The notes beneath the pieces were generated by a model that saw only the letters and a list, made by a program, of their open reading frames with translations, searched no databases and was not told the DNA's origin. A stretch of 36,489 bases of DNA, taken from Streptomyces laculatispora (GTDB lineage Bacteria; Actinomycetota; Actinomycetes; Streptomycetales; Streptomycetaceae). Both the position numbers and the translations under genes were made by a program. Location: the NCBI RefSeq assembly GCF_017353455.1, contig NZ_JAFMPZ010000491.1, positions 1-36,489 on the forward strand, given 5' to 3'. Below are positions 12,035 to 36,368 of the stretch, one piece after another (the first letter of the stretch is position 1; each line of letters starts with the position of its first letter).

Positions 12035-12097
12035 GCCGGACGCCGGATGCCGGATGCCGGATGCCGGATGCCGGATACCGGATGCCGGATGCCGGAC
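12035..12097. repeat. nine-copy 7-bp tandem repeat (GCCGGAT)
   Basis: Nine uninterrupted 7-bp units. Six are GCCGGAT, the first and last are GCCGGAC, and one is ACCGGAT. The repeat sits between tetR and the hydrolase gene, directly upstream of the hydrolase -10 element. As a non-multiple of three it is unlikely to be coding, although it can be read as Pro-Asp-Ala-Gly-Cys-Arg-Met repeats. It is a candidate length-variable spacer. Confidence 0.9.
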
Positions 12098-28181: not shown

Positions 28182-28219
28182 GGGGCACCGCGCACACTGA
28201 ACAGTGAGCGCGGTGCCCC
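28182..28219 (+). terminator. terminator after glyA
   Basis: GGGGCACCGCGC (28182-28193) pairs perfectly with GCGCGGTGCCCC (28208-28219), and CACTG/CAGTG inside the loop can extend the stem. It begins 29 bp after the glyA stop and 90 bp before sdaA. It likely ends or attenuates the gcv-glyA transcript. Confidence 0.8.
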
Positions 28220-28308
28220 ATCCCTTGTCCCCGCTCTTCGGGCCGACCCGGCCCGTACCGCACCACCCGGCAGACAACGGCGTCTACCAGCGCTTTGAGG
28301 AGTCACCC

Positions 28309-29691
28309 GTGGCCATCTCGGTCTTCGACCTGTTCTCGATCGGCATCGGCCCGTCCAGCTCCCATACGGTCGGCCCGATGCGCGCGGCCCGTATGTTCGC
28401 GCGTCGGCTGAAGAACGAGGGCCTGCTGGCCCACACCGCCTCGATACGCGCCGAGCTGTTCGGCTCGCTCGGCGCCACCGGCCACGGCCACGGCACCCCC
28501 AAGGCCGTCCTGCTCGGCCTGGAGGGCGAATCCCCCCGTACCGTCGACGTGGAAACGGCCGACGACCGGGTCGCCGAGATCCGCTCGACCGGCCGGCTCA
28601 ACCTCCTCGGGATGCACGAGATCGCCTTCGACGCCGACGAGCAGCTGATCCTGCACCGCCGCAAGGCCCTGCCGTACCACGCCAACGGCATGACGGTCTT
28701 CGCGTTCGACCGCGACGGCGCCCCGCTCCTGGAGAAGACGTACTACTCGGTCGGCGGCGGCTTCGTGGTCGACGAGGACGCGGTGGGCGAGGACCGGATC
28801 GTCCTCGACGACACCGTGCTGAAGAACCCGTTCCGCACCGGCGACGAACTGCTGCGGCTCGCCCGCGACACCGGTCTGTCGATCTCCTCCCTGATGCTGG
28901 AGAACGAGCGGGCCTGGCGCACCGAGGACGAGATCCGCTCCGGTCTGCTGGACATCTGGCGTTCCATGCAGGCGTGCGTGTCTCGCGGCATGTCCCGCGA
29001 GGGCATCCTGCCCGGTGGCCTCAAGGTCCGCCGCCGCGCCGCGAACACCGCCCGCCAGCTGCGCGCCGAGGGCGACCCGCAGACCCACGCGATGGAGTGG
29101 ATCACCCTCTACGCGATGGCGGTCAACGAGGAGAACGCCGCGGGCGGCCGCGTCGTCACCGCCCCGACCAACGGCGCCGCGGGCATCATCCCGGCGGTGC
29201 TGCACTACTACGTGAACTTCGCCGCCGGCGGCGCCACCGAGGCGGAGAAGGACGACAGCATCGTCCGCTTCCTCCTGGCCGCCGGAGCCATCGGCATGCT
29301 CTTCAAGGAGAACGCCTCCATCTCCGGCGCCGAGGTCGGCTGCCAGGGCGAGGTGGGCTCCGCCTGCTCCATGGCCGCGGGCGCGCTCGCCGAGGTCCTG
29401 GGCGGTACCCCGGAGCAGGTCGAGAACGCCGCCGAGATCGGCATGGAGCACAATCTGGGCCTGACCTGCGACCCGGTCGGCGGCCTCGTCCAGATCCCGT
29501 GCATCGAGCGCAACGGCATGGCGGCGGTCAAGGCCGTCACGGCCGCGAAGATGGCGCTGCGCGGAGACGGCAGCCACAAGGTCTCCCTCGACAAGGTCAT
29601 CAAGACCATGAAGGAGACGGGCGCCGACATGAGCGTCAAGTACAAGGAGACGGCGCGGGGCGGGCTCGCGGTGAACATCATCGAGTGCTAG
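28309..29691 (+). CDS. sdaA: L-serine ammonia-lyase, single-chain, [4Fe-4S] type
   Basis: A 460-residue Fe-S enzyme that deaminates serine to pyruvate. The N-terminal beta domain starts at [25 protein letters not shown]. In the alpha domain, Cys345 (EVGCQGEVG), Cys353, Cys387 (LTCDPVGG) and Cys398 (IPCIERN) are the cluster-ligand region. The last residue, Cys460, corresponds to the C-terminal cysteine that binds the cluster in the Legionella enzyme. GTG 28309 has GAGGAG 6-7 nt upstream; the longer frame from 28204 begins inside the glyA terminator. The last 57 bp of the gene contain the attachment core of a 3.7-kb island, yet the reading frame is whole. Confidence 0.95.
29635..29685 (+). repeat. 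left attachment core (end of functional sdaA)
   Basis: A 51-bp segment, identical at 50 of 51 positions to 33335-33385. It encodes [17 protein letters not shown] of SdaA and stops just before the codon for the terminal Cys. The single mismatch is a silent change in an Arg codon (CGG here, CGC in the right copy). Confidence 0.85.
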
Positions 29692-29698
29692 GCGGATA

Positions 29699-29742
29699 GG
29701 CCCTGACCAGCGCGTTTTGTATCTTTCAGCGCCGTCAGGGCC
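29699..29742 (+). terminator. terminator-like hairpin after sdaA
   Basis: GGCCCTGAC (29699-29707) and GTCAGGGCC (29734-29742) are perfect complements around a 26-nt loop that contains GCGC elements able to pair. It starts 8 bp after the sdaA stop and, given the insertion, is probably island-borne. Confidence 0.5.
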
Positions 29743-29761
29743 TTGCCTGCTTGCGCGGCGG

Positions 29762-29816
29762 AAAGTCCCTGAAAACGCCCTGGGACAGACGTGAAAGTCC
29801 CTGAAAAGTCCCTGGG
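29762..29816. repeat. left cluster of AAAGTCCCTG repeats (candidate integrase arm sites)
   Basis: AAAGTCCCTGAAAA occurs at 29762-29775 and 29794-29807, with AAAGTCCCTGGG overlapping at 29805-29816. The copies are all in the same orientation. Together with matching copies at the right end they resemble arm-type binding sites of a tyrosine integrase. Confidence 0.6.
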
Positions 29817-29894: not shown

Positions 29895-29949
29895 TGATGT
29901 ATCAAATCGTTCCCCCACTCCCACCCAAGGGGCACCATTCGATACATGA
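29895..29949. promoter_or_regulatory. imperfect 21-bp inverted repeat at the abiEi start (candidate AbiEi operator)
   Basis: Positions 29895-29915 and 29929-29949 are complementary at 17 of 21 positions. The most regular part is ATGTATC against GATACAT. The right arm covers the abiEi start codon. AbiEi antitoxins are known to repress their own operon by binding long inverted repeats upstream; this site fits that pattern. Confidence 0.65.
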
Positions 29950-30560
29950 ACGCTGCGGAAAACCCGCGCTTGGAGCAGCGGCTGGCCGGCCTCTCCCCCA
30001 CATTCACGACGGCGCAGGCGCGACAGGCCCTGCTCTCCCCTCGCGATCTGGCGCACTTGGTCACGGAGGGGGAGATAGACGAACTGTCCCGTGGGGTGTA
30101 CCGGCGGGCAGACGCCCCGGAAACGGCGCACGCGGATTTGCTGGCCGTGTGCGCACGGGCCCATCGCGCCGTCGTGTGCGGTGAATCCGCCCTGGCCCTG
30201 CATGAACTGATCGACGACATCCCCGCAGCAGTACACATCGCCGTGCCGCGCGGTTCACGCCGCCCGACGATTTCCTACCCGCCGACCGTGGTGGCGCAGT
30301 ACGCCGCAAAGACCTTCGACCTCGGTATCGAACGGTTCGAAGCAGCCCCGGGAGAAACCATCCCCATGTACAACGCAGCTCGCAGCGTCGTCGACGCAAT
30401 GCGCCACCGCAGCCGCCTCGGCGAAACCCTCGCCCTGTCCGCGCTCGGCCGCTACCTGCGCCGAAGCGGGCGCGGCGGGGTTGGCGAACTCCAGCACATC
30501 GCACGCGAGTTGGACGCCCTCTCCGTCGTCCGCCCCGCCGTAGAGGCGGTGCTCGCCTGA
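29946..30560 (+). CDS. abiEi: AbiEi-type antitoxin
   Basis: A 204-residue protein of the AbiEi family, the antitoxin of a type IV toxin-antitoxin and phage-defence system. An N-terminal winged helix (about 17-60) contains TTAQARQALLSPRDLAHLVTEG and the family segment SRGVYRR. The C-terminal domain includes AVCGESALALHELIDDIPAAVHIAVPRGSRRP, typical of AbiEi. AbiEi both represses transcription and antagonises the toxin without binding it directly. ATG 29946 lies within the right arm of an inverted repeat. The stop overlaps the toxin start by 1 nt (TGATG). Confidence 0.9.
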   Translation: MNAAENPRLEQRLAGLSPTFTTAQARQALLSPRDLAHLVTEGEIDELSRGVYRRADAPETAHADLLAVCARAHRAVVCGESALALHELIDDIPAAVHIAVPRGSRRPTISYPPTVVAQYAAKTFDLGIERFEAAPGETIPMYNAARSVVDAMRHRSRLGETLALSALGRYLRRSGRGGVGELQHIARELDALSVVRPAVEAVLA

Positions 30561-31261
30561 TGGCCAACCCCACCCGCGACACCACCGCCGGCCGCGTCTA
30601 CAACGACCTGCGCAACCTGGCGCGCCGCAACAGCCGGTCCACGGACGAGGTCATGGTCGAGTACATCCTCGAACGGTTCCTCTACCGCCTGGCCTCATCG
30701 TCCCTGGGCCGGGAGCACTTCGTCCTCAAAGGTGGCCTGCCGCTCGCTCAGTTCGGCGCACGTCGAATGACCCGGGACGTCGACATCCTCGGTCGATCTT
30801 TCCCAGGCACAGAAACAGAGATCATCCACAGAATCGCGGCCATCGCCGCCACCGAGAGCGACGACGGCGTCGTATTCGATCCCACGACACTCAAGACCGT
30901 CCCCATTCGTGAGGAGGACGAGTACCACGGTCTACGCCTGTCTATGGCCGCCTCCATCGCCCGAGCACGACTCAAGCTCCAACTGGATATCAGCTTCGGC
31001 GACCCCGTCACCCCCGGCCCCCGGATCATCGACTATCCGCAGCAACTCACGACGGACAGCTTCCAGCTCCTCGGCTACCCACTCGCCACCGTCATCGCCG
31101 AAAAACTCTCCACCGCCATCTCACTCGGCAACCTCAACACCCGCGACCGCGACTACGGTGACCTCTACCGCCTGCTCACCCTCAACGACCTGGACGGCCA
31201 AGAACTCACCACAGCGCTGACCGCCACCGCCACACACCGCGGCATCACTCGGACTCGGTGA
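30560..31261 (+). CDS. abiEii: AbiEii-type nucleotidyltransferase toxin, probably C-terminally shortened
   Basis: A 233-residue nucleotidyltransferase of the AbiEii/AbiGii family. FVLKGGLPLAQFGARRMTRDVDIL (54-77) carries the KGG motif and the catalytic R-x-T-x-D-x-D (Asp73, Asp75). The later AEKLSTAIS and RDRDYGDLY segments are the family's motifs III/IV, with Arg where Lys is usual in the last. Related toxins block growth by nucleotidylating tRNA or a similar RNA. Many relatives continue for several dozen residues beyond the HRG segment near residue 228; this one stops after ITRTR and overlaps a TPR gene by 4 nt, suggesting loss of the C-terminus at a rearrangement junction. Activity is therefore uncertain. 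Confidence 0.85.
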   Translation: MANPTRDTTAGRVYNDLRNLARRNSRSTDEVMVEYILERFLYRLASSSLGREHFVLKGGLPLAQFGARRMTRDVDILGRSFPGTETEIIHRIAAIAATESDDGVVFDPTTLKTVPIREEDEYHGLRLSMAASIARARLKLQLDISFGDPVTPGPRIIDYPQQLTTDSFQLLGYPLATVIAEKLSTAISLGNLNTRDRDYGDLYRLLTLNDLDGQELTTALTATATHRGITRTR

Positions 31262-32793
31262 GCATCCACCGCCTCGTCCAGACCACACTCCGGAACCAGT
31301 CGCCCATCGGTGACAGCGCGCCAACCGGCAGGTTGGAGGCCGAACGGCTGCTGAGCGCTGCGGTCGCCCCCCTGGGAGAACCACCCGACTCTGGCCGGTC
31401 CCCCACCTGGGATCGGCTGCTTCCGCACCTCGTCGCGCTCGCGGCCACCACTCCTGACGGACACGCTGACACCTTTCCCGCCGGCCGGTACGCGAGCGCT
31501 GCACTCTACCTCCAGGGCCTCGGCCATGACGGCCGCGCCGTTCCGCTACTGACGGCGGCCCTCGCCCGCTGCGAAGCGCTCGCTGGCGCCGAGCACGAAA
31601 TCACCATGAAGGTCCGTTCGAACCTGGGCGACGCCTACTACGGAGCCGGGGACTTCGAACGGTCCATCGCCATCCTCGAACCGTTGGTTGCCCAGTGCGC
31701 GCAGGTACTCGGCGACTCGCATCTAGGGACGCTCACCGTCGCCGCCAACCTTGCCAACTCGTACCGTGACTCCGGCGATCTGGCCCGTGCCGTCACACTC
31801 CACGAGGAGACGTTGGCCCGGCGTAGGCACGCACTTGGCAACGATCACCCCGACACTCTCGTCAGCTGCGAGGAACTGGCCCGCACCTACCATGCGTCCG
31901 GCGACTTGGGTCGTGCTGTCTCTCTGTATGAGGCCACACTCACGCATCACCAGCGATCCCTAGGACCAACTCACCCTGCCACGCTGAGCAGCCAGCACGG
32001 TCTAGCGGCGGTCTACCTCGCTTCAGGCGACCTGTCCCGCGCCATTCCGATGTACTCCGCCGTCTTCACACAGTGGCAGCAGGCGTTCGGCGACAGCGAA
32101 TCCGAAACCATCACCAGCCGGAACAACCTTGCCTACGCCTATCTGATCGCCGGACGCCCTGACCAGGCAGCGCAGCACCTCAAGACGGCCCTGGCCCGAT
32201 GCGAGGAGGTGTACGGCGAGGCGTACCCAGAGACCATTGCCATCCGTGCGAATCTCGGCTGCGCCTACCGAGACGCCGGAGACTTCACCCGTTCGCTTCC
32301 ATTGCTGGAGACCGCGGCCGCGCAGAGCGCCCACCTCCTCGGCGAGGGCCATCCTCAGACCTTGACCACTAGGAACGGGCTAGCGCAGGCATACCGGGCC
32401 GCCGGCCACGATGGACAGGCGATCGCCCAGTACGACACCGTCCTCAAGCACCGTGCCGCGCTGCTCGGCGAGACCCACCCCCATACCCTCGCCACCCGAA
32501 GCGGCCTCGCGAATGCACACCTCGCGGCGGGCGACCCTGATCGCGCCGTCCCGCTATTCGAAACCGTCATCACCCAGTGCGAGCAGGTCTTCGGCGAGTC
32601 CCACCCGGACACCCTGTCCAACTACATCGGCCTGGCCGACGCACTACGCCAGACGGACAATCGGGCACAGGCGAGACGATCGGCACGGCCGTCACCGGAG
32701 ACAACACCACGATCCGCCCGTGACCCCGCCTCGGCTATAGAGTTCTTGCCACCAGTCTTCGAACTGTGCGCGATACCGTCGACCCTGGTCTGA
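31258..32793 (+). CDS. TPR-repeat protein, probable N-terminally truncated STAND (NB-ARC-TPR) protein
   Basis: A 511-residue protein made mostly of about nine 42-residue tetratricopeptide repeats (about 95-465). Each has the kinesin-light-chain-like pattern G-x-x-HP-x-T followed by paired helices with AYRDAGDFTRSL-like turns. The N-terminus SIHRLVQTTLR is normally found at the end of the winged-helix part of NB-ARC/STAND ATPases, just before the TPRs, so the nucleotide-binding half is missing. GTG 31258 overlaps the abiEii stop (GTGA). The C-terminal 45 residues do not look like TPRs and may be out of register with the original end. It may be a remnant or a new AbiE-linked TPR protein. Confidence 0.75.
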   Translation: MSIHRLVQTTLRNQSPIGDSAPTGRLEAERLLSAAVAPLGEPPDSGRSPTWDRLLPHLVALAATTPDGHADTFPAGRYASAALYLQGLGHDGRAVPLLTAALARCEALAGAEHEITMKVRSNLGDAYYGAGDFERSIAILEPLVAQCAQVLGDSHLGTLTVAANLANSYRDSGDLARAVTLHEETLARRRHALGNDHPDTLVSCEELARTYHASGDLGRAVSLYEATLTHHQRSLGPTHPATLSSQHGLAAVYLASGDLSRAIPMYSAVFTQWQQAFGDSESETITSRNNLAYAYLIAGRPDQAAQHLKTALARCEEVYGEAYPETIAIRANLGCAYRDAGDFTRSLPLLETAAAQSAHLLGEGHPQTLTTRNGLAQAYRAAGHDGQAIAQYDTVLKHRAALLGETHPHTLATRSGLANAHLAAGDPDRAVPLFETVITQCEQVFGESHPDTLSNYIGLADALRQTDNRAQARRSARPSPETTPRSARDPASAIEFLPPVFELCAIPSTLV

Positions 32794-33125: not shown

Positions 33126-33249
33126 GTGCATGAGCACCGCATAACGAGAGCGGGCTCGCCGAAGCCATCGCGTGGCGCTCGATCGTCAACTACCCAATCC
33201 CGCACGCTTTTCACGCAACACGCGATACGTTGTAATCAGCTCTCGACAA

Positions 33250-33271
33250 AAAGTCCCCACAAAGTCCCTGA
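33250..33271. repeat. right cluster of AAAGTCCC repeats (candidate integrase arm sites)
   Basis: AAAGTCCCCAC (33250-33260) is followed directly by AAAGTCCCTGA (33261-33271), in the same orientation as the three copies near the left end. The cluster sits 64 bp before the right attachment core. Confidence 0.6.
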
Positions 33272-33334
33272 CGTGAAGCCTGGGCACGCCAAAACTGCAG
33301 GTCAGTCCCGTGATCAACAGCCGTCCACATGTCG

Positions 33335-33385
33335 GTCAAGTACAAGGAGACGGCGCGCGGCGGGCTCGCGGTGAACATCATCGAG
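33335..33385 (+). repeat. right attachment core (displaced sdaA 3' end)
   Basis: This 51-bp copy reads in frame as the end of SdaA ([17 protein letters not shown]), followed by Arg and a TGA stop. It therefore lacks the terminal Cys of the functional copy. It has no upstream gene of its own and is a footprint of integration, not a gene. Confidence 0.85.
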
Positions 33386-33391
33386 CGCTGA

Positions 33392-34758: not shown

Positions 34759-36368
<1,610 letters not shown>

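Follow-up and report, generated by a model that had tools for sequence, protein, structure and literature searches.

The window analysed here (36,489 nucleotides of Streptomyces laculatispora, assembly GCF_017353455.1, contig NZ_JAFMPZ010000491.1, positions 1 to 36,489, forward strand) very probably contains an integrative element inserted by a tyrosine recombinase into the 3' end of sdaA, the gene for L-serine ammonia-lyase. Strand exchange would have occurred near 29635-29657. A near-identical copy brought by the element would have taken the place of the final 11-18 codons of sdaA and its stop codon, including the codon of the C-terminal cysteine, and the original end of the host gene would have been pushed to 33335-33391. 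In autonomous relatives this displaced end would become the 3' coding end of the integrase gene, so that on integration SdaA and the integrase would swap the coding sequences of their C-terminal tails. Since the element of the window has no integrase of this tailed family, its displaced tail would code for nothing known and would have drifted, after the loss of int, from TGC (Cys) to CGC (Arg). Evidence for this comes from the two tails, the sharing of the tail with integrases, the markers of the swap, the absence of the integrase family and a unique terminal codon, all read directly from the sequences.

The comparison panel comprised 295 genomes of the same genus. The genome containing the window is a draft (663 contigs, 84% complete). 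The left and right copies of the sdaA tail (attL and attR) were compared in 28 pairs, nine from elements without an integrase gene (int-less) and 19 from int-bearing elements, of which 13 have an intact and six a partial int. These pairs are phylogenetically non-independent, and all agreement and substitution statistics below should be read accordingly. One pair with a diverged tail, NITEC (L182 in genome G318), was retained; the middle copy of G306 (L188) and the two-copy genomes that were not fetched lie outside the set. The int-less class includes elements of up to 14 kb, among them L039, whose katG-like content is chromosomal in appearance.

The target gene is preceded by gcvT, gcvH and glyA and encodes a full-length member of the SdaA family:

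28204-29691, forward strand: sdaA, L-serine ammonia-lyase (TIGR00720, 690.7 bits against a cut-off of 345.1), ending in NIIEC-TAG

The open reading frame was taken from the first GTG, and the family homology begins near residue 38. In a sequence alignment with the Legionella L-serine dehydratase (PDB 4rqo), which ends in GGLAVNLPEC, the window protein can be aligned through its last residue, cysteine; the two were compared by sequence alone. In the accessible part of PMC12647591, C-terminal Cys458 of the Legionella enzyme binds the fourth iron of the cluster, which agrees with the preliminary description of this DNA, where the residue was named as a ligand of the Fe-S cluster. The same part cites work whose title calls the C-terminal cysteine an intrinsic competitive inhibitor. 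The preliminary description also called the residue essential; this is unproven, as the roles given in that part of the paper are those of a fourth cluster ligand and a competitive inhibitor. At all occupied sites compared (28/28 pairs) sdaA keeps the terminal cysteine.

A second copy of the sdaA 3' end lies 3,700 bp downstream, at 33317-33389 (88% identity over 73 nt). The two copies are divided as follows:

29635-29657, forward strand: attL identity block, identical in both copies and including the wobble agreement at 29637; probable strand-exchange interval
29658-29691, forward strand: part of the sdaA tail presumably supplied by the element, judging by base 29658 and the stop-codon distribution; Cys codon 29686-29688, stop codon TAG 29689-29691
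33335-33391, forward strand: attR, probably the displaced 3' end of the host sdaA; terminal codon CGC 33386-33388, stop codon TGA

Counting from 29635, the copies match over 23 bp, differ at 29658 (G/C), match at 29659-29685, differ at 29686 (T/C) and match at 29687-29689. Base 29658 of sdaA differs both from the displaced copy and from the copy in another genome of the same species, G166. As described before, sdaA ends in NIIEC (TGC-TAG) and the displaced copy in NIIER (CGC-TGA); the sole difference between the terminal codons is T at 29686 versus C at 33386. The earlier statement that the common core stops one codon short of the cysteine holds for the window, because of this single substitution, but not for the other 27 of the 28 pairs, where both copies have TGC. 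The repeat is not due to chance, since two tail copies on the same strand, 1-14 kb apart, were found in at least eight further genomes in the scan of 295 (G032, G252, G245, G007, G057, G089, G130, G072). The arrangement is that of an element restoring the 3' end of its target: the sdaA 3' end is present at both borders, the gene is kept whole, and the end carried by the element is distinguished from that of the host by the stop codon and wobble markers.

The following features were found between the two copies:

29698-29743, forward strand: hairpin at the left end of the element, just after the restored stop codon (fold z -3.71, none of 200 shuffles as stable)
29762-29814, forward strand: three copies of AAAGTCCCTG, probable left arm-type sites of an integrase (repeat search, one mismatch allowed)
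29946-30560, forward strand: AbiEi antitoxin gene (PF13338, 31.9 bits, cut-off 25)
30560-31261, forward strand: AbiEii toxin gene without about the last 70 residues (PF08843, 111.4 bits, cut-off 22.5)
31258-32793, forward strand: gene of a TPR-repeat protein, probably a fragment (PF13424, nine stretches; NF040586 FxSxx_TPR, 282.3 bits, below the cut-off of 300)
33261-33270, forward strand: right arm-type site (repeat search), with a degenerate neighbour 11 bp upstream read by eye

Besides the genes of AbiEi, the shortened AbiEii and the TPR protein, the 3.6 kb between the copies contain a fourth scanned open reading frame without a Pfam match. The AbiEi and AbiEii genes form the pair of an AbiE type IV toxin-antitoxin system, but AbiEii is not full-length: it has 233 aa versus 299 aa in L037, with 93% identity over residues 1-229, and the homology ends at 229. 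The DNA similarity to the related elements L035, L036 and L037 stops at 31246. Between 31246 and 33145 the end of AbiEii and the following DNA of the relatives seem to have been replaced by a piece of a TPR gene, and from near 33145 the sequence again resembles the 1.9 kb mini-element of L037. Three int-less elements at this site (L034, L040, L041) encode a similar PIN-like protein instead of or besides AbiE (PF01850 in the L041 copy). Beyond the element, the window contains a gene of the terpene synthase family (34932-36368, PF19086) and tandem GCCGGAT repeats (12035-12090).

No rep or tra families were found among the four open reading frames of the element, which thus does not have the int, rep and tra modules of an AICE. 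A profile HMM was built from 27 integrases of the tailed family. It matched none of the nine int-less elements, including that of the window, and all five small elements with remains of int that served as positive controls, each carrying a partial gene. The rest of the draft genome contains only divergent or partial integrase homologues together with the shared tail. Thus both cores are present and the tailed integrase family is absent; other recombinases were looked for by Pfam in part of the open reading frames. The element may be comparable to a CIME, an int-less island flanked by att sites.

The left-end sequence signature was observed in 55 of the 295 genomes. Within one mismatch, AAAGTCCCTG occurs elsewhere in the window only at 33261, and thus the window retains three left arm-like sites and one right site. 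In the pair set, copies of AAGTCCCTG within one mismatch are located mostly at +70, +81, +102 and +113 after the stop codon and, ahead of the distal core, at -101 and -90. Such a repeat is present at least once in 24/28 attL and 20/28 attR, and in none of 18 unoccupied controls, which were chosen visually by the absence of the hairpin, cover the left side only and include one site twice (L008 and L045). Right-hand arm sites were found in 16/19 int-bearing versus 4/9 int-less elements. Within the int genes the right arm pair is coding (VPEKSL). Judging by sequence, a role as arm sites for the repeats, and a function for the hairpin, may be suggested.

The link between the repeat and an integrase was found in G067, where two tails are 137 kb apart. 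The open reading frame entering the second tail encodes a tyrosine integrase (P0003, PF00589), which reads in frame through the attR repeat and ends in the SdaA-tail sequence. The same holds for the autonomous elements at the sdaA site, whose tyrosine integrases have the SdaA tail as their last ~16-23 residues. A contig scan, in which most hits bear the name Streptomyces, yielded 79 integrase loci, of which 25 end in the SdaA tail or a close variant, counting whole and partial frames; several of the 25 were matched in pieces or only partly. The tail is present in all 24 integrase genomes examined, and 23 of them have at least two copies, where the second copy may be sdaA, a paralogue or another element and in six genomes lies on another contig. 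In 17/24 genomes two copies share a contig and a strand, with a spacing that ranges from 3.3 kb in G316 to 120 kb in G303. In five loci (L056, L058, L063, L064, L076) the left-end signature directly follows the int tail at the stop codon, which suggests tandem elements stacked at one site.

One could suppose that the second copy in the window arose by simple tandem or segmental duplication of the 3' end of sdaA and is not an attachment site. Direct repeats by themselves are no proof of site-specific recombination, and five of the nine int-less elements have no right arm site. However, the arm-like repeats stand at fixed offsets in most attL and attR and are lacking from the left-side controls, integrases read through the same repeat, and the left-end signature recurs across the panel. 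A simple duplication is therefore hardly credible, and we consider the copies to be attachment sites.

Tail-less related integrases terminate close to the arm region or a little beyond it. Five of them (L067, L068, L070, L071, L095) are 70-72% identical to the tailed ones and keep the VPEKSL arm-coding stretch; most are followed by similar sequence, perhaps another target. In a structure model of the integrase, residues 448-478 have pLDDT under 50 (mean pLDDT 71.5, 23 sequences). The idea that the integrase needs the SdaA tail was considered; the low pLDDT at 448-478 and the tail-less relatives at 70-71% identity (L070, L071, L095) speak against it. The model and the sequences suggest that the SdaA tail may be a passenger on the integrase.

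A phage or plasmid source for the element found no support. No exact attP-like match was found in viral contigs, no DNA match in phages, and the whole element was not found in plasmids. Relatives of the integrase occur in 505 phage and 34 plasmid records, all of them below 60% identity. In the plasmid search a left-end stretch of about 90 bp was matched at 75.6% by four S. cellulosae records, and part of AbiE has a 76.8% match in an Embleya replicon. Titles and abstract openings in the literature mention neither an sdaA integration site in Streptomyces nor an integrase sharing the C-terminus of its target; as subscription papers were mostly outside this search, it is weak evidence of novelty.

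The 28 pairs contain markers of the swap. At 29637 (wobble position -4, in the Val codon before Lys-Tyr) attL and attR agree in 25/28 pairs versus 14.9 expected, a level reached in none of 2000 shuffles, and the base itself varies between pairs. At 29634 the two ends have the same base in 25/28 pairs versus 16.1 expected. The agreement at both positions is compatible with an overlap region in which attP and attB have to be identical. On the other hand, the second base of the stop codon shows no excess of agreement (17/28 versus 16.6 expected), and the stop codon TAG occurs in 11/28 attL versus 2/28 attR. The window follows this pattern, with TAG at sdaA and TGA at the displaced copy. Because of the agreement at 29637 and 29634, its absence at the stop codon and the skew of TAG to attL, we infer that the tail to the right of about 29657, including the cysteine codon, came from the element. 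However, some positions to the right of the presumed exchange also agree above chance (+26, 23/28 versus 13.1 expected), and thus the markers do not fix the exact exchange point. That the incoming DNA must supply the cysteine codon, as proposed earlier, is in line with the probable exchange interval, which lies 28-51 bp upstream of this codon.

Two explanations had been offered earlier for the different endings, that the displaced copy lost the cysteine codon by one T-to-C change or that the element was selected to keep it. The former fits the data. Among the 295 genomes, with patterns requiring CTN for leucine (TTG copies, one of them in G261, fall outside), a tail copy ending in TGY is present in 287, and a search for a terminal codon with a non-T first base, the only class of variants covered, yielded one genome, the hit being the displaced copy of the window. 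In the other 27/28 pairs the displaced copies keep TGC, and in G166, which lacks this element, sdaA ends in TGC-TAG. The unique codon, the prevalence of TGY and the same-species TGC make a private change in the discarded copy the most likely origin of CGC. This change was presumably neutral. The second explanation stands in a general sense, as the cysteine is retained in every one of the 28 sdaA tails at occupied sites.

The reverse history, with an original sdaA that had a terminal Arg in this lineage and was repaired by Cys from the element, would agree with the CGC ending of the displaced copy, which is expected to be host DNA, and with the failure to find a clean same-species empty site. 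It is very unlikely, as no other tail with a non-T first base was found in the 295 genomes, the sdaA of G166 ends in TGC without the element, and PDB 4rqo has Cys at the aligned position. The check proposed earlier, for an uninterrupted sdaA ending in Arg, gave no such gene; it gave no clean empty site in the species either. A search with the right flank of the window in 100 relatives, a set without G166, produced a full-length match only in the window. G166 itself is not a clean ancestral site: its stop codon is TAG, and no alignment is obtained between the 61 bp after an insertion there and the 94 bp following the displaced copy of the window. This insertion (L033, about 1548-2550) is IS-like and located at the sdaA stop codon, with a duplication of TA or TAG and an intact reading frame. 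A sequencing or assembly error might also produce a single base seen once in a draft genome, and we consider it very unlikely: the displaced copy differs in addition by its TGA stop codon and by C at 33358, which argues against a mis-assembled duplicate. The private T-to-C change thus remains our preferred origin of CGC.

The tail differences between attL and attR depend on the state of the integrase gene. The numbers of nonsynonymous and synonymous differences are 0/28 in 13 pairs with an intact int, 3/16 in six pairs with a partial int and 4/5 in nine pairs without int (Fisher test, p 0.002 for intact versus none, p 0.010 for intact versus the rest); these numbers are low, come from related pairs and were divided into three classes once the two-class result was known. 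In that first split int-bearing pairs had 3/44 (binomial p 7e-24 at an expected nonsynonymous share of 0.757) and int-less pairs 4/5 (binomial p 0.04; Fisher test between the classes, p 0.009). The Cys-to-Arg change of the window is one of the four nonsynonymous differences in int-less pairs. The displaced copy of L036 has no stop codon; stop loss was outside the substitution counts. The int-less counts are what drift after the loss of int would give.

Another possibility is that the terminal cysteine codon is conserved because the integrase recognises the att DNA and not through selection on SdaA. The codon is inside the repeated segment, and TGC occurs in 55/56 copies of the pair set. However, with an intact int nearby wobble bases vary whereas amino acids do not, the stop codon directly after the cysteine varies between TAG and TGA, and sdaA genes without the left-end signature also end in Cys. 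Recognition of the codon as DNA is therefore unlikely, and selection on the encoded tails is preferred.

AbiE DNA similar to that of the window was found in 20/295 genomes. It adjoins the sdaA tail in 16 of these 20, and in the other four no sdaA tail was present within the stretch fetched. In G252, G007, G002, G112 and G049 AbiE is 92-94% identical to that of the window versus 83-85% for sdaA (G252 93.6/82.9, G007 92.8/85.3, G002 92.9/83.6, G049 93.0/84.1, some over partial length). The contrast is reversed in G245 (83.2/90.5), G097 (79.6/83.5) and, barely and over 104 bp, G183 (82.7/83.4). The element thus has a history different from that of its hosts, which suggests transfer between species, in trans or before the loss of int. 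The scarcity of right arm sites in int-less elements, compared with those with int, weakens the case for mobilisation in trans, and the mode of movement of the int-less elements can be suggested only conditionally. A broader reading is that the shared tail works in both proteins, the integrase having adopted the cluster-binding end of SdaA, that tails are traded at each integration and excision, and that int-less toxin-antitoxin mini-islands (about 1-4 kb) were moved in trans between Streptomyces species via the same att sites. Taken as a whole, this seems rather doubtful.

Phage 21 and e14 enter the 3' end of a protein-coding gene, icd, and restore it. The sdaA site is analogous in that the element brings a substitute 3' end, moving the old one aside and leaving the gene intact; a difference may be that, in autonomous relatives, the integrase has the displaced end as its own C-terminus. 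In the part of PMC9513070 available, Streptomyces AICEs and DAICEs are located in tRNA or protein-coding genes, with 14 protein-coding insertions. The decay by integrase loss, with cargo left between direct repeats and possible later mobilisation in cis, is similar there, whereas the open reading frames of the window element contain no rep or tra family. Boilgate-type phages with tRNA-targeting tyrosine integrases, so far as the accessible text of PMC10865867 describes them, carry the 3' part of the host gene in attP, and the gene is rebuilt at one junction. Unlike there, the element considered here targets a protein gene, and in the relatives the copy on the element side is also part of the int coding sequence.

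At occupied sites, mobile DNA would supply a housekeeping enzyme with its final residue, one that has been described as an iron-sulfur ligand. A single DNA segment would be an attachment site and would also encode the ends of two unrelated proteins. The conservation of the tail would be explained by host selection on sdaA together with constraint on the displaced copy where int is intact. The loss of int would then predict drift of the displaced tail, and this is what the window displays. The sdaA site, with its left-end signature in 55 of the 295 genomes, and the corresponding integrases could serve as an integration system for Streptomyces.
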